Assembly (NCBI GenBank): GCA_947501115.1
Contig: CANMVX010000038.1
Location: forward strand, 1-36,033
DNA from: Haliscomenobacteraceae bacterium
GTDB taxonomy: Bacteria; Bacteroidota; Bacteroidia; Chitinophagales; Saprospiraceae
Reading direction: 5' to 3'
DNA: 36,033 bases
The translations under genes and the position numbers were made by a program. The notes beneath the pieces were generated by a model. That model did no database searches. It had not been told where the DNA came from and worked only from the letters and a program-made list of their open reading frames with translations. Numbering within the stretch: the first letter of the stretch is position 1; each line of letters starts with the position of its first letter. This document shows positions 4,042 to 12,120 of this stretch, in pieces.

Positions 4042-4848
4042 TCATAGATCTTTTGCGTGTAATAAAGAAAAGATATCTGGAAATTTTTCCATCGTTGGTA
4101 TAGGAAAATAAAGAAGATGAACAATAACGACAGGCAATATTTCAATATCTGGCCTTCCAATACATTCAAAAATACAGGTTTTGTCCCAGCCACTTATTTC
4201 GGCTAAGGTTTCCCACCACGATTCTTCCCCTTCTGGCCATTTTCTGTCTGTATTTTGCGCTATGTAAATTTTAGACCATTCATGAGCGGTAACCGGATAA
4301 TGATTTATTGGATTCATGTATCCCTGGAATATAGCTTGTGCAGAAAACAGTAAAACACCGTCCTCTGAAAATGATTCTGAATGATGAAAGTTATTAGGAT
4401 ACTGTGGAGAAGGGAAGGCGGTAGGATAAATTACTATTTTTTCATAACCATTAAAAAGAAATTTCTCCTCCTCGAAGGTTAACATGACGGCGGGAATAAT
4501 AGCCATAAGCTTGAAATCTTCGGGTAAACTCTCTTCTGATTGGCCTTGAAAATCAATAGCCAGAAGCATAAGAAAACAACGTTGCTCAAAAACTAATTTT
4601 TTCTCAGCACTCAATGCAATGTAAAATGGACAACCTGTGAGGAGGATCTGTTTTTGAATGTTATCAAGGCCTGGCGTAAATTTCTTATAGTAATACCAGT
4701 CTATCTGAGGTGAAAGTACATATATAACGGCTATCAAAATGATTGGAGGTAACATCCATATACCATACAAACCGTCATTTATCCATGAATAATAACCCAC
4801 GATAAGAAAGACAATAAAACAAGGAATGAGAAGTATCCTGGATGGCAT
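4042..4848 (-). CDS. MtfA-like (peptidase family M90) protein with degenerate zinc motif
   Basis: Residues 5-45 form one or two membrane helices. From about residue 85 the protein follows the MtfA/M90 'zinc-dependent peptidase' pattern: VMLTFEEEKFLFNGYEKIVIYP (121-142), a short SPQYPNNFHHSE segment, a strand-rich GVLLFSAQAIFQGYMNPINH, then the active-site helix. In active family members that helix carries HExxH. Here it reads AHEWSKIY (H189, E190, K193), so the second zinc histidine is lysine. The later Glu ligand region (usually EYFF) reads VHLLYFP and lacks the Glu. The C-terminal PDIFSLL matches the family ending. I therefore read it as a catalytically impaired or repurposed homologue. It is upstream of the hypothetical gene at 3458-4012. 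E. coli MtfA binds the regulator Mlc; nothing here shows that this relative does. Confidence 0.72.
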   Translation of the reverse strand: MPSRILLIPCFIVFLIVGYYSWINDGLYGIWMLPPIILIAVIYVLSPQIDWYYYKKFTPGLDNIQKQILLTGCPFYIALSAEKKLVFEQRCFLMLLAIDFQGQSEESLPEDFKLMAIIPAVMLTFEEEKFLFNGYEKIVIYPTAFPSPQYPNNFHHSESFSEDGVLLFSAQAIFQGYMNPINHYPVTAHEWSKIYIAQNTDRKWPEGEESWWETLAEISGWDKTCIFECIGRPDIEILPVVIVHLLYFPIPTMEKFPDIFSLLHAKDL

Positions 4849-4858
4849 CTTTTTTTTG

Positions 4859-4887
4859 TAAAGATAAGTGGATTCGGCTCAGACAAA
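4859..4887 (-). promoter_or_regulatory. Candidate promoter of the MtfA-like operon
   Basis: Read on the - strand, TTTG (4887-4884) and TATCTTTA (4866-4859) are separated by 17 bases, resembling the Bacteroidota -33 TTTG / -7 TAnnTTTG promoter. The ATG at 4848 follows 10 bases after the -7 box. The last base of the box deviates from consensus. Confidence 0.4.
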
Positions 4888-4950
4888 TCTGCTTTTTAAA
4901 ATAATTGTATTTTTTTTTTGAAAGAATAGTACTTCTTTAAAAAAGAATAG

Positions 4951-4958
4951 TATCTTTG
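4951..4958 (+). promoter_or_regulatory. -7 box for tRNA-Phe (and probably the his leader)
   Basis: TATCTTTG is an exact Bacteroidota -7 element (TAnnTTTG), 30 bases before the tRNA. No good TTTG is found at the usual -33 distance. An 11-bp direct repeat, AAAGAATAGTA, lies at 4921-4931 and again at 4942-4952, 21 bp apart (two helical turns), with the second copy entering the -7 box. No other promoter-like sequence occurs between the tRNA and hisG, so this may also be the his operon promoter. Confidence 0.5.
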
Positions 4959-4988
4959 TCCCGCTCAAAAGAGGAGTTTTAATAGGAA

Positions 4989-5061
4989 GGTATGGTAGCT
5001 CAGTTGGTAGAGCACAGGACTGAAAATCCTGGTGTCGGCGGTTCAATTCCGCCCCGTACCA
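4989..5061 (+). tRNA. tRNA-Phe (GAA)
   Basis: A 73-base cloverleaf can be folded by eye. The acceptor is GGTATGG/CCGTACC with one T-G pair and discriminator A. The D arm is GCTC-AGTTGGTA-GAGC. The anticodon stem CAGGA/TCCTG encloses loop CTGAAAA, giving anticodon GAA. The T arm is GGCGG-TTCAATT-CCGCC. CCA is not encoded (ACA follows the acceptor stem). Only 14 bases separate it from the ATG of the His leader ORF, and no terminator intervenes, so read-through into the his leader is expected. Confidence 0.97.
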
Positions 5062-5075
5062 CAATTTTATTTTAT

Positions 5076-5138
5076 ATGATTAACATAGCATTTCATATTG
5101 GTCATCATCATCACGTACTACCTTGTAGTGTGGGTTGA
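5076..5138 (+). CDS. hisL: Histidine operon leader peptide (20 aa)
   Basis: A 20-codon ORF, ATG at 5076 to TGA at 5136-5138, encodes MINIAFHIGHHHHVLPCSVG. Five of the 20 residues are histidine, including four consecutive codons (5103-5114, CAT CAT CAT CAC). It lies immediately upstream of an intrinsic terminator that precedes hisG, the position and composition expected of a his attenuator leader. In enterobacteria HisL is a short peptide with seven consecutive His. Stalling there under histidyl-tRNA shortage allows antitermination. Here the peptide product itself probably has no function; its translation is the sensor. No Shine-Dalgarno sequence is visible, normal for this phylum. The name is assigned by analogy with enterobacterial HisL, not by homology. 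Confidence 0.85.
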   Translation: MINIAFHIGHHHHVLPCSVG

Positions 5139-5173
5139 AACCGGTATAAATGGTTTAAAAGAGGTTTACCCAC
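5112..5173 (+). promoter_or_regulatory. His attenuator: pause hairpin and antiterminator
   Basis: Two competing structures are visible. Pause hairpin: CAC 5112-5114 plus ACTAC 5117-5121 pair with GTAGT 5125-5129 plus GTG 5130-5132. Antiterminator: GTGGGT 5130-5135 pairs with ACCCAC 5168-5173, and AAACC 5138-5142 pairs with GGTTT 5163-5167, giving 11 bp with a two-base bulge. The antiterminator uses the 5' arm of the terminator (5157-5172), so the two exclude each other. The leader stop codon (5136-5138) overlaps the bulge, so a ribosome finishing the leader would block the antiterminator. A ribosome stalled at 5103-5114 would instead break the pause hairpin and favour it. Confidence 0.8.
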
Positions 5174-5197
5174 TCGTGGTTAAACCTCTTTTTTTTT
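5157..5197 (+). terminator. Intrinsic terminator (attenuator) before hisG
   Basis: Bases 5157-5172 pair with 5177-5192: a 16-position stem with a single C-T mismatch (5169/5180), loop CTCG, and an uninterrupted T run through 5197. It sits between the His leader ORF and hisG, 15 bases before the hisG ATG. It would also end the tRNA-Phe transcript. Confidence 0.92.
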
Positions 5198-5212
5198 GCA
5201 ATTTTTTATCAA

Positions 5213-6073
5213 ATGAGTGATATGCTTAAGTTAGCGGTACAAAAATCGGGAAGACTTCTTGAGGGTTCTTTAGATTTGTTGAAATCTTGTGGTATCAAAA
5301 TTGATAATGGAGAAGACCGGTTGCGTGTTACGGCCACTCATTTCCCTATGGAGCTTTATTTTTTAAGAAATTCCGATATTCCGCAATACGTTCAGGACGG
5401 TATTGCAGATATTGCTATTCTCGGAGAAAATACGCTGGTGGAGAAAAATAGAGAGATGGATAAAATTATGCCTCTGGGTTTTTCAAAATGCCGTCTTTCT
5501 ATTGCCGTACCCAAAGGGGTGAACTACACGGGCGTGCAATGGCTGGAAGGTAAAAAAATAGCCACTTCCTATCCCCATTCACTGGCAAATTATTTAGATG
5601 CCTTGAAGATAAAAGCTGAAATTCATGAGATTTCCGGCTCTGTAGAAATTGCCCCAAATATTGGTCTCGCAGATGCTATCTGTGATTTAGTGAGCAGTGG
5701 TTCCACGCTCTTCAAGAATAATCTGGTGGAAAAAGACGTACTTTTCAAATCAGAGGCTTGGTTGGTATCACACAAAGCTATCTCTCATGAAAAACAGGTT
5801 TTACTCGATAAATTGATATTTAGAATGAAAGCCGTGCTTACAGCGGCGAATAATAAATATCTTTTGATGAATGTTCCGAATGATAAAGTAAAAGAAGTCA
5901 TTGAACTGCTGCCTGGTATGAAAAGTCCAACCGTCATGCCGCTGGCAGACCAACAGTGGAGTTCCGTTCATACAGTGATTGGAGAAGATCAGTTTTGGGA
6001 TATTATAGACAGATTAAAAGATGCGGGTGCTCAGGGCATTTTAGTTATTCCAATTCAAAAAATGATTCTATGA
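5213..6073 (+). CDS. hisG: ATP phosphoribosyltransferase, long form
   Basis: HisG catalyses the first and feedback-regulated step of histidine synthesis, condensing ATP with PRPP. At 286 residues it is the long form. The catalytic part has LKLAVQKSGRL at the N-terminus, DIAILGENTL, KKIATSYPHSLANYL and the PRPP-loop-type sequence ADAICDLVSSGSTLFKNNL (about residues 153-171). The last ~75 residues (YLLMNVPNDKVKEVIELLPGM through GAQGILVIPIQKMIL) are the ACT-like HisG_C domain that binds histidine. The ATG at 5213 is 15 bases after the attenuator T run. Its TGA overlaps the hisD ATG (ATGA, 6070-6073), indicating translational coupling. Expression is predicted to depend on read-through of the upstream attenuator. 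Confidence 0.97.
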   Translation: MSDMLKLAVQKSGRLLEGSLDLLKSCGIKIDNGEDRLRVTATHFPMELYFLRNSDIPQYVQDGIADIAILGENTLVEKNREMDKIMPLGFSKCRLSIAVPKGVNYTGVQWLEGKKIATSYPHSLANYLDALKIKAEIHEISGSVEIAPNIGLADAICDLVSSGSTLFKNNLVEKDVLFKSEAWLVSHKAISHEKQVLLDKLIFRMKAVLTAANNKYLLMNVPNDKVKEVIELLPGMKSPTVMPLADQQWSSVHTVIGEDQFWDIIDRLKDAGAQGILVIPIQKMIL

Positions 6074-7371
6074 CCTCTTTTATAAAGCACTTTTATGATA
6101 ATCCACCGAAAGCGGAATGGGCAAAAATTCTTGCCAGGCCAAATCCAGGAGGTGCTGATATTTCTGCACTCGTTGCTGATATTTTGGTTGCCGTTAAAGA
6201 AAAAGGGAATCAGGCTATTTTAGATTTTAATACCCGGTTTGATGGATTTGACAGTGTGTCACTTGAAGTTACTGAAGAGGAAATAAAGGAAGCGGTTTTA
6301 TCATTACCAGAAAATTTAAAAAAAGCTATTCTAAGTGCAGCGGCTAATATTACTGCGTTTCACGAAAAGCAAAAAGTAGATCAGGAACCTGTCGAAACCA
6401 TGCCAGGTGTTTTATGTTGGCGAAAAAGTGTGCCTATTGAAAAAGTAGGTTTATACATTCCGGGTGGAACAGCGCCTCTGTTTTCCAGTGTGCTTATGCT
6501 GGGTATTCCAGCTAAAATTGCCGGATGTAGTGAAATAATATTGTGCTCTCCTCCGCAGAAGGACGGAAAAATTCATCCGGCTATTTTATTTGCCGCTCAT
6601 ATTACGGGTATAACCCGAATATTTAAAGTAGGGGGGGCTCAGGCTATCGCCGCTATGGCCTTCGGTACCGAAACCATTCCTGCCGTATATAAAATTGCCG
6701 GACCAGGAAATAGGTACGTCACAGAGGCAAAACAGTCTATTACAAAGTTTGGTGTCGCTATAGATATGCCCGCCGGACCAAGTGAGGTGCTGGTTTTTGC
6801 CGATGAAGGGGCAAATCCTGCCTTTGTTGCCGCCGATTTACTCTCGCAGGCCGAACATGGTGAAGATAGTCAAGTTGTGTTAATTTGTCCGGATAAAATG
6901 TTTTTTGAAAAGGTGGATATAGAAATTGGTAAGCAATTAGCCTTCTTGCCACGAATGGAAATAGCTGTAAAGGCGCTTCATAATAGTGTGGCCATCGCAG
7001 TAAATAATGCTTCCATAGCCATGGATTTAATTAATGATTATGCGCCGGAACATTTGATTATGGCGTTGCGGAACCCTATCGATTTTGTAAATGATATCAG
7101 GAATGCTGGTTCTGTATTTCTTGGGGATTACACCCCTGAAGCGGTAGGCGATTATGCCTCAGGTACTAATCATACGCTGCCAACCAATGGTTTTGCCCGC
7201 GCTTTTAGCGGAGTTTCTGTTGATTCTTTCATAAAAAAAATTACTTTTCAACAAGTTAGCCCGTCCGGTTTAACTACATTGGGGCCAATCGTTATGACTA
7301 TGGCGGAAGCTGAACGACTCGAAGCCCATAAGCAAGCGGTTTCAATCAGACTTGATAATCTTCAACTATGA
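6070..7371 (+). CDS. hisD: Histidinol dehydrogenase
   Basis: HisD carries out the last two oxidations, L-histidinol to L-histidine, using NAD and zinc. The 433-residue protein has the family signature region (IPGGTAPLFSSVLMLGIPAK, FKVGGAQAIAAMAFGTETI, IAGPGNRYV). The expected zinc ligands are Q260, H263 (LLSQAEHGEDSQ), D361 (AVGDYASG) and H420 (ERLEAH); the catalytic pair is E327-H328 (APEHL). I place the start at the ATG at 6070 although the frame is open upstream, because MTSFIKHFYD matches the normal N-terminus and gives the ATGA overlap with hisG. The 3' end overlaps the next gene by ATGA as well. Confidence 0.97.
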   Translation: MTSFIKHFYDNPPKAEWAKILARPNPGGADISALVADILVAVKEKGNQAILDFNTRFDGFDSVSLEVTEEEIKEAVLSLPENLKKAILSAAANITAFHEKQKVDQEPVETMPGVLCWRKSVPIEKVGLYIPGGTAPLFSSVLMLGIPAKIAGCSEIILCSPPQKDGKIHPAILFAAHITGITRIFKVGGAQAIAAMAFGTETIPAVYKIAGPGNRYVTEAKQSITKFGVAIDMPAGPSEVLVFADEGANPAFVAADLLSQAEHGEDSQVVLICPDKMFFEKVDIEIGKQLAFLPRMEIAVKALHNSVAIAVNNASIAMDLINDYAPEHLIMALRNPIDFVNDIRNAGSVFLGDYTPEAVGDYASGTNHTLPTNGFARAFSGVSVDSFIKKITFQQVSPSGLTTLGPIVMTMAEAERLEAHKQAVSIRLDNLQL

Positions 7372-8558
7372 AGAATATAGCTTTTTTGTTATTGATTTTT
7401 CTCGCTTCTTTTTCACTTAAGGGCCAGTCGTTCCTTTCAGGGAAAACCTATTTTAGCGATAAGGAATATATAGAATATTTCGCTGGAAATATGCCTCTTA
7501 TTTTGACTGTACCCCATGGAGGTTTGTTGGTCCCATCCACTATTCCTAACAGGAATTGTGCGGGATGTGTGACCGTTATGGATACAAATACCCAGGAATT
7601 GGGAAGATTGATTGCAGACGAGATTAAAAAAATGACTGGGGGAAATTGTTTTCCTCATCTTATTATTAATCGCCTGAGAAGAACTAAACTTGACGCAAAC
7701 AGAGATCTTTTTGAGGCAGCTTTAGATAATCCAGACGCTGTCAACGCATGGTATGCCTTTCACAAGTTTATTGATTCTGCCAAAATGATGGTCGCTAATC
7801 AGTTTCAACGGGGTTTATTGATAGACCTTCACGGACATGGTCATGCCTTTCAAAGGCTGGAATTGGGATATTTGCTCTCTGCTTCCAATCTGAGGAGTGG
7901 GAATAATTTTTTGAACAGTCCAGTAGCTATCGAAAATAGTAGCATCAGACATTTAGCCTCAAATAATAAAAATGAATACCGTCACGCCGAATTGTTGAAT
8001 GGTCAGAAGAGTTTGGGCGGATTTTTTGAAACGGAACGATATACCGCAGTGCCTGGCCCCGCAGATATTGCACCAAGAAGTGGGGAAGATTATTTTTCCG
8101 GAGGATACAACACAGAGAGACATGGCTCGGTGGATAGTGGAAAAATAGATGCTATACAGATTGAATGTAATTTTACAGGGGTGCGGGATTCAGAAATATC
8201 TCTCCAGTTTTTTGCTGAAGCTACGGCTAATGCATTGGTTAAATTTTTAAAAACTCACTATTTTGGTAAAGATGGATTTTCATGCCCTACCTCGATAACA
8301 AGTAATAAGGATAAAAATACGGAGCTTTCTTTTAGCGTATTTCCTAATCCCGCCTGCGAATCGGTCACGTTGAATTTACCTTCTCCGGGTACCCTTCGAA
8401 TGTATAACGCAACCGGGCAGGTTTTAAATGAATTTTCCTTGCTCAAGGAGGGCGAACACACCCTACCTTTAGCGTTTAATGATAAGTTTGTTCTTCTTCA
8501 ATTTATTGGTAAAGATGGATCAAGTGGGTCCATGAAACTTATGCGTCAATGTTATTGA
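7368..8558 (+). CDS. Secreted N-formylglutamate amidohydrolase-like protein with T9SS sorting domain
   Basis: This 396-residue protein starts with a signal peptide (residues 1-20, KNIAFLLLIFLASFSLKGQ). The main domain (about 30-295) follows the N-formylglutamate amidohydrolase family: LTVPHGGLLVPSTIPNR, DTNTQELGRLIADEI, PHLIINRLRRTKLDANRDL and LIDLHGHGHAFQRLELGYLL. The His/Asp/Glu residues of these motifs are likely metal and substrate ligands. The C-terminal ~75 residues (from about 320, FSVFPNPACESVTLNLP, through GEHTLPL to the end) are a Por/T9SS type A sorting domain. It should therefore cross the outer membrane. It lies inside the his operon, overlapping hisD by 4 bases and hisC by 10. 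Cytoplasmic relatives (HutG) deformylate N-formylglutamate in histidine breakdown, but many family members have unknown amidase or peptidase substrates. A direct link to histidine synthesis is not shown. Confidence 0.88.
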   Translation: MKNIAFLLLIFLASFSLKGQSFLSGKTYFSDKEYIEYFAGNMPLILTVPHGGLLVPSTIPNRNCAGCVTVMDTNTQELGRLIADEIKKMTGGNCFPHLIINRLRRTKLDANRDLFEAALDNPDAVNAWYAFHKFIDSAKMMVANQFQRGLLIDLHGHGHAFQRLELGYLLSASNLRSGNNFLNSPVAIENSSIRHLASNNKNEYRHAELLNGQKSLGGFFETERYTAVPGPADIAPRSGEDYFSGGYNTERHGSVDSGKIDAIQIECNFTGVRDSEISLQFFAEATANALVKFLKTHYFGKDGFSCPTSITSNKDKNTELSFSVFPNPACESVTLNLPSPGTLRMYNATGQVLNEFSLLKEGEHTLPLAFNDKFVLLQFIGKDGSSGSMKLMRQCY

Positions 8559-9613
8559 AAAAATTAGACTTCAACCGCCTCGTGCGCGCAAATATTCTTA
8601 AGCTCACTCCTTATTCGTCGGCAAGGGGAGAGTTCAAAGGTTCTGCCTCCGTTTTTCTGGATGCGAATGAAAATCCTTTCGATTCAGGGTATAATCGCTA
8701 TCCTGATCCACTGCAATTAACCCTAAAAGATAAAATTAGTGCCCTTTGGCATGTTCCCGTACCTTCTGTTTTTCTTGGAAATGGAAGTGATGAACCCATT
8801 GATTTACTCGTTCGTCTTTTCTGTGAACCAGGCTTAGATCACATTATCATTACGCCTCCCACCTACGGAATGTATCGTGTCGCTGCTGATATTGCCGGGG
8901 TCGAAGTCAAAGAAATAAATCTTCGCGCTGATTTTCAACTTCCCGTAAAGGATATACTCGAACAGGCAAATGAACACAGTAAAATCCTCTTCTTATGCAG
9001 CCCCAATAATCCAACGGGGAACCTTTTAAATAAAGAGGATATTATTCAGATTATCCATCTTTTTCCGGGTATTGTAGTACTCGATGAAGCCTACACCGAC
9101 TTTGCAGAGAATACCAGCTTCCTTCCGGAGCTGTCCAATTTTCCAAATTTGGTTATCCTCCAGACCTTCTCTAAAGCATGGGGTCTAGCCGCTATTCGAT
9201 TGGGCATGGCCTTCGCCTCCATGGAAATAATAGATTTGCTGAATAAGATTAAATCTCCCTACAATCTAAATATTTTAACCATAGATTTTGTCCTTCGTCA
9301 ACTGGACTTTTTAAAGGAAAAAAATGACTCAGTGGACATTTTAATAAAGGAAAGACACCTGCTGATAGAACATTTTAAGTCCTTCACCTTTATAAACAAA
9401 GTGAATCGTTCCGACGCTAATTTTATCCTCATTCAGGTAGATGACGCAGATGGACTTTACCAATTTCTTGTTTCTAAAGGCATTATCGTGAGAAATAGGT
9501 CAAATATGCCACTTTGCGAGGGAGGATTAAGAATTACCGTAGGTACAACGCTGGAAAATAATAATCTTTTAGCGTCCATGAGCGAATGGGCCAGTTTAAA
9601 ATCTTTATCATGA
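8549..9613 (+). CDS. hisC: Histidinol-phosphate aminotransferase
   Basis: HisC is a fold-type I PLP aminotransferase converting imidazole-acetol phosphate to histidinol phosphate with glutamate as donor. Recognisable elements in the 354 residues are LDANENPF (38-45), [13 protein letters not shown] (cofactor phosphate region), CSPNNPTGN (150-158), [10 protein letters not shown] with D179 and Y182, and the Schiff-base lysine K209 in [14 protein letters not shown]. The C-terminus carries the substrate arginine region (GGLRITVGT). The ATG at 8549 lies inside the last codons of the amidohydrolase gene (10-base overlap). The TGA at 9611-9613 overlaps the hisB ATG. Confidence 0.96.
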
Positions 9614-10746
9614 AAAGAGTTTTATTTATAGATAGGGACGGAACATTAGTGTTTGAACCTGCTGATTACCAAATAGATAGTAAGGAAAAAGTTTCTTTTT
9701 TACCAGCTGTGTTTGCTTCATTGGCGCGTATTTGTAAAGAGACAGATTTTGAATTGGTTATGGTGACCAATCAGGATGGATTAGGTACAGATTCCTTCCC
9801 GGAAAATACTTTTTGGCCAGCTCATGAATTCATTTTAGATGCCTTTAAGAAGGAGTCTGTTGTTTTCAGTGAAGTTTATATCGACAAATCTTTCCCTCAC
9901 GAAAATGCTCCCACCCGGAAACCCAGGCTTGGGATGTTGCAAAAGTATTTGTCCAGTGAGTATGATCTTAAAAATTCCTGGGTCATCGGCGATCGCTTAA
10001 CCGATATGGAATTGGCCTATAATCTTGGTGCAAAAGGTATTTTTATCACAAGCAATGAGGAACTAGGAGTACAGGAGGTAAGTAGGGATATGACTGAAAT
10101 CAATAAGGTGATTGCCCTGAAAACGAGAGATTGGAATGAAATGGCTACTTTTTTGTGCCAACAAAGAGCGCCTGTCACCTTATCAAGAAAGACGATGGAA
10201 ACAGACATTTTCGTAAGTCTTAATCTCGACGGTGCAGGTAATTATAATCATCAAACCGGATTGGGTTTCTTTAATCACATGTTGGATCAATTGGCTAAAC
10301 ACAGTGGCATTGATTTATCTGTAACCGTTTCGGGCGATTTACACATTGATGAACATCATACTATAGAAGATACCGCCCTTGCTCTAGGCGCCGCATTTAA
10401 AAAGGCATTGGGGGATAAAAGAGGCATTGAAAGATATGGTTTTTTTATTTTACCTATGGATGACGCTTTGGCTCAGGTAGCCATAGATTTTAGTGGAAGA
10501 CCCTGGTTGGTATGGAATGCTTCTTTTTTAAGAGAAAAAGTAGGTGATTTTCCAACGGAAATGGTGTATCATTTCTTCAAATCATTTTCTGATGCCGCAG
10601 CTTGCAATATTAATATTTCGGTGAGTGGGGAAAATGAACACCATAAAATAGAGGCGCTTTTCAAATCTTTCGCCAAAGCTATAAAAATGGCAGTGAAAAA
10701 AGACCCGGAAAACCATGCTTTACCTTCCACAAAGGGTTTGCTTTAA
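9610..10746 (+). CDS. hisB: Bifunctional histidinol-phosphatase / imidazoleglycerol-phosphate dehydratase
   Basis: This is a fusion of two pathway enzymes, 378 residues. Residues 1-165 are the HAD-type histidinol phosphatase: FIDRDGTL gives the nucleophile Asp, VTNQDG motif II and [19 protein letters not shown] motif III/IV. From about residue 180 comes imidazoleglycerol-phosphate dehydratase with its manganese-binding histidines: [32 protein letters not shown] and [16 protein letters not shown]. Start chosen at the ATG at 9610 because it begins right at the HAD strand ([12 protein letters not shown]) and forms an ATGA overlap with hisC. An in-frame ATG at 9586 would add eight residues inside hisC. 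The fused architecture is common in Bacteroidota and enterobacteria. Confidence 0.96.
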
Positions 10747-10755
10747 ATTGATTTT

Positions 10756-11355
10756 ATGAGCCAGCAAATTGCCGTTATTCAATATAATGCAGGAAATATA
10801 CACTCCGTATTATCTGCCTTACATCGTCTAGGTTTCAAAGGTATTCTTACCGATAATCCGGAGATTATTCAATCTTCCGATAAAGTAATTTTTCCCGGAG
10901 TGGGTGAGGCCAGGTCAACCATGAATCATTTAAGGGAAAAGGGTTTGGATGAGATTATTAAAAACTTAACCCAACCTGTCCTTGGAATTTGTTTGGGAAT
11001 GCAACTTCTTTGTAAACATTCAGAGGAAAATGACACAGATTGTTTAGGAATTATTCCCCTTGAAGTGAAAAAATTTATTCCCCAACAGAGGGAAAATGTT
11101 CCTCATGTCGGTTGGAATACCCTGCTGAATACCCAAAACTTACTCTTTGAGGGTCTTCCTGAAAATTCTTTTGCCTATTTTGTACATAGTTACTATGCAA
11201 CGTTGGGGCCTGAAACCATAGCACAAACAGATTATATTTTTCCTTTTAGTGCGGCGGTTCAAAAAGATAATTTTTACGCAACGCAGTTCCATCCCGAAAA
11301 ATCTGGATGGGTTGGAGAAAAAATTCTTGGTAATTTCTTAAATATCGCTCCCTAA
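10756..11355 (+). CDS. hisH: Imidazole glycerol phosphate synthase, glutamine amidotransferase subunit
   Basis: HisH is a class I glutaminase that supplies ammonia to the HisF cyclase. The catalytic triad is visible: C79 in GICLGMQLL, and H179 and E181 in QFHPEKSG. IAVIQYNAGNIHSV opens the protein and FPGVGEARSTM is the oxyanion region. Length (199) is normal. It begins 9 bases after hisB and is followed 21 bases later by hisA. Its obligate partner HisF is not encoded in this operon. Confidence 0.96.
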   Translation: MSQQIAVIQYNAGNIHSVLSALHRLGFKGILTDNPEIIQSSDKVIFPGVGEARSTMNHLREKGLDEIIKNLTQPVLGICLGMQLLCKHSEENDTDCLGIIPLEVKKFIPQQRENVPHVGWNTLLNTQNLLFEGLPENSFAYFVHSYYATLGPETIAQTDYIFPFSAAVQKDNFYATQFHPEKSGWVGEKILGNFLNIAP

Positions 11356-11376
11356 TTCATTTTTTAAAATGTATAT

Positions 11377-12120
11377 ATGATTATTATTCCTGCCATTGAC
11401 ATTATAGGTGGAAAATGCGTAAGATTAACGCAAGGTGACTATAATCAAAAGATTGAGTATAATTCCAATCCATTGGAAGTGGCGAAACTTTTTGAAGGAA
11501 ATGGATTAAATTATTTGCACGTCGTTGATCTTGACGGTGCTAAGGCTGGTAAAATTGTCAATTATCAAATCTTAGAACAAATTACCCATCGAACCAATTT
11601 AAAGGTTGATTTTGGGGGTGGATTGAAATCAAATGACGATTTGAAAACAGCCTTTGAATGTGGTGCCAATCAAGTTACAGGAGGTACTATCGCTGTCAAA
11701 AATAAGGCTTTATTCCTGCATTGGCTGGAACAATTCGGAGCAGAAAAAATAATATTAGGCGCTGATTTCAAAGCGGATTATATAGCTACTGACGGTTGGC
11801 AGGAATCGAGTGATAATTTGCTTTTACCCTTCCTGGAAAGTTATTTTAAAGAGGGCATTAGGTATGTCATTTCAACAGACATAAGTAAAGATGGCCTCTT
11901 AAAGGGTTGTTCTTTAACTAAATACGAGGAAATAAGACACGAATTACCTGAAATAAAACTGATCGCCAGCGGGGGAGTAACGACGGTAGATGAGTTAGAC
12001 AAATTATTTGAACTCGGTTGCCATGGCGCTATCATTGGTAAAGCGCTCTATGAAGGTCACTTTACAGCCAAAGCCTTAGGTCTTCTTCAGGAAACATATT
12101 TTTCAAAACATGGGAGCTAG
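11377..12120 (+). CDS. hisA: ProFAR isomerase (HisA)
   Basis: HisA is the TIM-barrel isomerase converting ProFAR to PRFAR. D8 (PAIDIIGGKCVRLTQGDY) and D130 (LGADFKADY) are the two catalytic aspartates. LHVVDLDGAKAGK, VDFGGGLKS, STDISKDGLLKG, IASGGVTTVDEL and GAIIGKALYEG are the phosphate-binding and family motifs. At 247 residues it is complete. HisA and HisF are paralogues, but the N-terminus (IIIPAIDI rather than HisF's RIIPCLDV) fixes it as HisA. It is the last his gene here: uvrA starts 56 bases downstream, where hisF and hisIE would normally follow. Confidence 0.96.
   Translation: MIIIPAIDIIGGKCVRLTQGDYNQKIEYNSNPLEVAKLFEGNGLNYLHVVDLDGAKAGKIVNYQILEQITHRTNLKVDFGGGLKSNDDLKTAFECGANQVTGGTIAVKNKALFLHWLEQFGAEKIILGADFKADYIATDGWQESSDNLLLPFLESYFKEGIRYVISTDISKDGLLKGCSLTKYEEIRHELPEIKLIASGGVTTVDELDKLFELGCHGAIIGKALYEGHFTAKALGLLQETYFSKHGS

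Follow-up and report, generated by a model that had tools for sequence, protein, structure and literature searches.

The his operon of this member of the Saprospiraceae is probably controlled by a ribosome-mediated transcription attenuator that is borne on the tail of a tRNA-Phe transcript. The window, by which we mean the whole stretch of 36,033 nt that was analysed (Haliscomenobacteraceae bacterium, assembly GCA_947501115.1, contig CANMVX010000038.1), contains a tRNA-Phe gene, a His-rich leader ORF, competing hairpins and hisG in succession (Table 1). The basis for this reading is what the sequence itself presents: the parts of the element, their conservation and covariation, where they lie, too little space for a promoter before the leader and the one tRNA-Phe that was found. 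From these we infer promoter use, tRNA cleavage, ribosome stalling and read-through.

Table 1 Features of the tRNA-Phe and his leader region, numbered from the first nucleotide of the window
Feature	Coordinates	Strand	Remarks
Bacteroidota-type -7 box TATCTTTG (TAnnTTTG)	4951..4958	+	Putative promoter for tRNA-Phe, leader and his operon
tRNA-Phe (GAA)	4989..5061	+	Discriminator A5061; CCA not encoded
Spacer from tRNA 3' end to leader start, 14 nt	5062..5075	+	Gap measured
his leader peptide ORF (hisL-like) MINIAFHIGHHHHVLPCSVG and stop	5076..5138	+	Read by eye and by script
Weak pause/protector hairpin, 8 bp	5114..5132	+	Folding; without a ribosome, part of a larger fold in which the antiterminator arm is hidden
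Antiterminator 5' arm	5130..5142	+	Overlaps the leader stop codon; folding and duplex tests
Antiterminator 3' arm	5163..5173	+	Inside the 5' half of the terminator hairpin; folding and covariation
Intrinsic terminator	5157..5197	+	Stem 5157-5192, T-run 5189-5197; attenuator of his
hisG, first structural gene	5213..6073	+	TIGR00070, 180.7 bits against a cut-off of 75.75
hisD, amidohydrolase-like ORF, hisC, hisB, hisH, hisA	6070..12120	+	Downstream of hisG, same strand

The leader ORF comprises 20 codons and TGA, with five His codons, one at 5094-5096 and four in tandem at 5103-5114. A preliminary description of this DNA had reported this ORF and its His codons with the right coordinates, as reading by eye and a script both confirm. 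When the 420 nt that precede hisG in the window were dinucleotide-shuffled 5000 times, a short ORF containing HHH arose in 11 shuffles and one containing HHHH in none. The leader was found in all seven same-genus loci, with the fourth His of the run replaced by Tyr or Cys in three. These seven are near-copies that are also counted within the 34 fused loci considered below. Loci nearly identical to that of the window (HisG 97-99%) are from metagenome-assembled genomes, and three of these are labelled Saprospiraceae.

Further downstream, the amidohydrolase-like ORF between hisD and hisC (7368-8558) has a weak match to N-formylglutamate deformylase (23.2 bits against a cut-off of 278.75). The hisF gene lies apart from the his operon (G000:C7:60140-60889, L221), close behind another ORF, and no His leader is present in the stretch read just upstream of it.

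The region of 151 nt that contains the element folds better than 200 out of 200 shuffles (z -3.56). A pause hairpin had been placed at 5112-5132; it is real, with 8 bp (5114-5121 with 5125-5132), but weak, at only -4.0 kcal/mol in window folding. The 11-bp antiterminator proposed between 5130-5142 and 5163-5173 was found there, formed by 5130-5135 and 5138-5142 pairing with 5163-5173 (-15.4 kcal/mol). The leader stop codon, described as sitting in the bulge of this helix, does so mostly but not wholly, the unpaired positions being 5136-5137. The terminator stem had also been recognised together with its T-run (5157-5197), and consists of 15 bp and one mismatch (-16.1 kcal/mol), with a run of nine T that ends 15 nt before hisG. 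A simple terminator scan of 4500-5600 called no terminator, presumably because the scan requires an unbroken stem. Since the arm at 5163-5173 is common to antiterminator and terminator, and both helices covary over related loci, the mutual exclusivity claimed for them is borne out. The first paired base of the main antiterminator helix is 15 nt past the His run. Taken alone, the antiterminator of the window is not significant, since shuffling its arm gave an equally good result in 13 of 200 cases; its support comes from relatives.

We gathered 205 hisG loci from four sources. A draw of relatives had hisG in 46 of 100 genomes, and all 46 places were taken; a family draw had it in 227 of 398, from which the best 30 (17 new) and 40 chosen places were taken; a phylum draw had it in 252 of 296, from which the best 30 (27 new) and 20 chosen places were taken; and 55 named loci were added. 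The sample favours HisG proteins resembling that of the window, and many genomes of the phylum with only a distant hisG match were left out. After dropping two loci whose hisG start could not be located (L101, which is fragmentary, and L213, which showed no leader), two with less than 150 nt upstream and ten duplicates, 191 distinct loci were retained.

A His-rich leader was detected by a looser test in 181 of the 191 upstream regions, and a run of at least three His precedes hisG in 159. For the first 147 loci of the set, HHH in a short upstream ORF occurred in 127, compared with 14 of 2940 shuffles, and the next commonest residue runs were Ile (30) and Ser (26); the looser test was positive in 142 of these 147 and in 356 of 2940 shuffles. 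Ten of the 191 loci lack a leader by script; among these, L016 has one beyond the 420-nt limit, L036 has a weak one with two His, and L106 retains the terminator alone. A terminator of -8 kcal/mol or better follows the leader in 170 of the 181 leader-bearing loci. Two of the 11 loci scored as negative, L037 and L139, have a clear stem with a poor T-run. The suggestion in the preliminary description that the element may be conserved before hisG in relatives thus agrees with the counts for both leader and terminator. The Flavobacteriaceae loci in the sample have the same anatomy. One Flavobacteriaceae-type hisG with its leader (L065) is on a contig labelled Rhodobacteraceae, and is probably from a mislabelled bin. 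A second leader-like stretch before hisG, indicative of tandem his attenuators, was seen in L111, L082, L099, L038 and L033, with a second terminator in some of them.

Covariation was evaluated in 32 loci, drawn from the tRNA-linked loci and those with similar leaders, after removal of near-copies. In the terminator, 95.3% of the cells are paired and nine pairs have changes on both sides; in the antiterminator, 87.1% are paired (shuffled mean 84.6%) and seven pairs have changes on both sides. Neither the nine nor the seven was reached in any of 500 shuffles, and with slid partners the maximum was three double-change pairs for the terminator and two for the antiterminator. Covariation of the stems in relatives had been named at the outset as a way to check the attenuator, and both competing helices covary in this set. 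Two same-genus rows of the alignment are out of register for the antiterminator; for a test in which arms were reassigned among loci we omitted one same-genus row and registered the window by hand, leaving 31 loci. The observed 271 of 310 paired cells was never reached in 2000 reassignments (mean 258.5, maximum 268). Relative to the antiterminator pattern of the family, the window has three double changes that keep the pairing (columns 38, 39 and 40). In the larger set of 170 loci, a locus's own antiterminator arm outperforms its shuffled versions (p<0.05) in 109, and in 87 it exceeds 95% of the foreign terminators. In those 109 loci the arm, as delimited by the duplex program including one flanking base, starts a median of 13 nt after the His run (IQR 11-15), approximately where a stalled ribosome ends. 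Judged from these alignments, the covariation is good enough for building a covariance model.

These patterns bear on the idea that the hairpin is solely the terminator of tRNA-Phe, with the His-rich ORF being a chance occurrence or encoding a working peptide (for example a metal-binding one), and with no attenuation at all. The hairpin must end the tRNA unit anyway, and L106 retains tRNA-Phe and the his terminator with its leader ORF lost, apparently as a decayed attenuator. Yet runs of at least three His stand before hisG in most of the sampled loci, although 144 of the 191 are without a tRNA in the vicinity, and the peptide outside the run differs by group while the antiterminator pairing persists. 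A working-peptide role for the leader was rejected on these grounds, and we give almost no credence to an explanation without attenuation.

In four loci (L039, L042, L043 and L175) the His leader ends in HHSS or HHSV. Its stop codon is accompanied by a small hairpin, and hisG is not preceded by any convincing intrinsic terminator; a hit of -9.1 kcal/mol in L043, included in the 170, is long and loose. These loci possibly represent a terminator-free variant. Such a variant may exist in the phylum, and its leader translation might then control hisG translation or Rho rather than an intrinsic terminator. It is very unlikely that the window itself works in this way, given its -16 kcal/mol hairpin with nine T, the T-run ending 15 nt before hisG, and the covariation of this hairpin in relatives.

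The preferred reading, attenuation by a translating ribosome, was modelled by folding the RNA up to the terminator loop with a ribosome placed so that a given codon was in the A site. With any of the four codons of the run in the A site, the antiterminator of the window has 10.1-10.7 bp, and with the earlier His (5094) 9.9 bp. With the stop codon in the A site it has 0 bp, a blocking that is partly a product of the mask itself. In the absence of a ribosome the leader folds back onto the arm, which leaves the antiterminator 0.3 bp. Across loci, a stall at the first or last His gives at least 5 bp of antiterminator in 166 of 170, exceeds the stop-codon position by at least 4 bp in 160 of 170, and exceeds the no-ribosome state by at least 3 bp in 123 of 170. 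The fold-back protection is not steady, as three same-genus loci (L003, L005 and L007) retain 3.5-6.4 bp of antiterminator without a ribosome. In a control with the stall at the last His, shuffled arms reached 5 bp in 952 of 1700 cases compared with 161 of 170 for the real arms, and real arms beat all ten of their own shuffles in 81 of 170 loci, where 15.5 were expected. In these models, stall-dependent pairing is clear across the set, not for single loci. When the whole terminator is included, equilibrium folding prefers it in every state, and the switch must therefore be kinetic. The hisL-type logic originally proposed is thus supported, as far as alignments and models go, by conservation of leader and terminator, by covariation and by folding with positioned ribosomes.

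The tRNA-Phe gene directly upstream of the leader was absent from the preliminary description, which had the element start at 5062. The element itself stands, but the description needs correction in that the element begins at the 3' end of tRNA-Phe and the promoter is very probably common to both. A tRNA gene occurs within 1.3 kb upstream in 47 of the 191 loci and is tRNA-Phe on the same strand in all 47; in the other 144, no tRNA gene was found on either strand within 1.3 kb, as far as the sequence reached. A leader was detected in 44 of the tRNA-linked loci; the gap between tRNA and leader is 1-26 nt in 34 of them (most 12-18 nt), which are termed fused here, and 45-210 nt in the other 10. 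In L019, L118 and L120 the leader AUG and the discriminator of the tRNA are 1 nt apart.

In all 34 fused loci the tRNA is preceded, at a distance of 17-58 nt, by a perfect TAnnTTTG, which we take to be the Bacteroidota -7 consensus. A control interval 120-172 nt upstream contains a perfect box in none of the 34 and five of six positions in 14. Between 8 and 35 nt before the leader, a match of five of six was found in none of the 34 fused loci, compared with 107 of 137 loci without a tRNA (40 of 137 in the control interval). The window offers little room for another promoter in the 14 nt between tRNA-Phe and leader. This lack of room, the -7 box on the tRNA side and the absence of one before the leader suggest that the tRNA-Phe promoter probably drives the his operon too, and that the attenuator serves as the terminator of the tRNA. 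A search for a sigma-70-type leader promoter gave five sites in 4500-5600 against a shuffle mean of 3.4, and this candidate was rejected.

In the draft genome to which the window belongs, tRNA-Phe 4989-5061 was the sole full-length match found. The his-linked copy was recovered by the tRNA-Phe search in all 34 fused genomes and a second tRNA-Phe in none (E 1e-6), with the proviso that these are mostly drafts and a copy may be missed; 26 have at least 90% completeness and at most 5% contamination. Seven second hits are tRNA-Met (six) and tRNA-Ile (one).

Alternatively, the attenuator may be real and have a promoter of its own, hidden in the tRNA gene or the spacer, with tRNA-Phe as a mere neighbour. 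Promoters inside genes are possible in bacteria, and separate transcription is likely in the ten loci with larger gaps. All ten have a hairpin and T-run inside the gap (counted without a shuffle comparison; that of L124 is weak), but only four of the ten have a promoter-like box (five of six) before the leader. In one of the ten, L038, the arrangement is tandem: the tRNA is followed immediately by a first leader with its terminator, so that the hairpin in the gap is the first attenuator. In the fused loci, by contrast, gaps of 1-26 nt (1 nt in three loci) are too short for a terminator, and the -7 matches seen before the leader in 107 of 137 tRNA-less loci are found in 0 of 34, with only this -7 type scored. 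We therefore consider a separate promoter unlikely and favour transcription from the tRNA-Phe promoter.

We placed the link on a HisG tree from a quick search (105 rows, with near-copies thinned and 12 further linked loci included). In this tree 35 of 38 tRNA-linked rows fall in one branch together with three unlinked rows (SH-aLRT 98). Seven changes are needed to explain the link, and well-supported branches force at least three. The HisG proteins of L034, L036 and L038, all linked to tRNA-Phe, lie elsewhere among the Saprospiraceae and may reflect second origins or transfer of hisG. A single origin had appeared in a quick tree of 118 rows, where 35 of the 47 linked loci formed a branch of 36 with the unlinked L014; the 105-row tree does not bear it out. 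On the HisG phylogeny, most tRNA-linked loci cluster in a single group of the family, and several origins, losses and hisG transfer are indistinguishable.

The window has no match to the Rfam His_leader family (RF00514) at gathering level, and none up to E 10 in 4900-5300. Among other Rfam elements, only tRNA reached its gathering score, the remaining matches being far below theirs. In the enterobacterial hisL, a leader with a His run precedes hisG as the first gene, and mutually exclusive antiterminator and terminator hairpins are switched when a stall on the His codons frees the antiterminator arm. The window resembles hisL (RF00514) in each of these features; it differs in the missing RF00514 match and in having tRNA-Phe, instead of a promoter, directly before the leader. 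Protein genes that use a tRNA promoter are exemplified by thrU-tufB and metY-nusA of E. coli, where the tRNA is released by processing. The proposed unit would be similar in having protein genes on a tRNA promoter with the tRNA processed off. Unlike in either operon, what follows the tRNA here is an amino-acid attenuator, which would at the same time terminate the tRNA unit, and the tRNA serves an unrelated amino acid. Attenuators in Bacteroidetes/Chlorobi are reportedly mentioned in an older comparative paper.

In the accessible parts of the literature, his attenuators are described from Proteobacteria and some Firmicutes (PMC9413887), and his leaders from gamma-proteobacteria and from hisZ of some Firmicutes (PMC4833913). 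The Firmicutes candidates in the former, which have three to five tandem His codons, terminator and antiterminator hairpins and also lack RF00514 matches, are similar to the window in leader and hairpins; they belong to another phylum, and no tRNA fusion is described in that part of the source. Leader-like small ORFs occur in 5' UTRs of Bacteroides (PMC7366714), and neither this source nor PMC4833913 names a his attenuator of Bacteroidota in the text available. In a superphylum survey of his genes (PMC8305728), again in its available text, 'leader' is absent and 'attenuat' appears once, about enterobacteria. For Flavobacterium psychrophilum and other Flavobacteriaceae, a structured 5' element before hisG has been reported, together with clues to leader-peptide attenuation at amino-acid operons and such elements without Rfam hits (available part of PMC9723704). 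This element is in the same phylum and before the same gene as that of the window; in the text available it is neither termed a His leader nor connected with a tRNA. The novelty within the phylum that the preliminary description saw in this element must accordingly be qualified: the hisG element is real but not wholly undocumented, to judge from that part of PMC9723704. Our searches of the open-access literature turned up no description of an amino-acid attenuator joined to a tRNA gene. The his attenuator thus looks to be of a kind already known, at which published work hints for flavobacterial hisG, and the tRNA fusion looks new.

Under the proposed mechanism, RNA polymerase would start before tRNA-Phe and make a transcript in which the leader directly follows the tRNA. 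An endonuclease cut after the discriminator is expected for tRNA 3' ends without an encoded CCA, and in the window no CCA immediately follows the discriminator, so a cut would be expected there. Removal of the tRNA would leave a leader RNA with a 5' UTR of 14 nt (1 nt in some relatives), and a ribosome would translate the 20 codons. With ample charged tRNA-His, the ribosome would reach the stop codon and cover the antiterminator arm 5130-5142; the terminator 5157-5197 would then form, and the transcript would end as a tRNA-Phe gene with its terminator. With scarce charged tRNA-His, the ribosome would stall on 5103-5114 and leave the arm free to pair with 5163-5173, and polymerase would continue into hisGDCBHA. 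If the leader were untranslated, the arm would be hidden in the fold predicted for the window, and termination would follow as well.

A bolder version, possible though on balance doubtful, is that tRNA 3' maturation enables the attenuator. Cutting tRNA-Phe off the nascent transcript would create the 5' end of the leader, so that the terminator decision would depend both on processing of the tRNA and on the charging of tRNA-His, and what seems to be the sole tRNA-Phe and the his operon would be tied to one stable-RNA promoter. The leaders of L019, L118 and L120 would be practically leaderless if the tRNA is cut after the discriminator. Were this version true, the attenuator would, under histidine starvation, have to work against any stringent shut-down of the tRNA-Phe promoter.

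Classical attenuation is the usual arrangement before hisG in the sampled Bacteroidota and is hardly described in the literature that we found for the phylum. The fusion to tRNA-Phe raises two questions: how a biosynthetic operon could be driven by the promoter of a stable RNA that is essential, and whether translation of the leader is gated by processing of the tRNA. Within the Saprospiraceae, fused, separated, tandem and leader-less versions of the element form a natural series for experiments.
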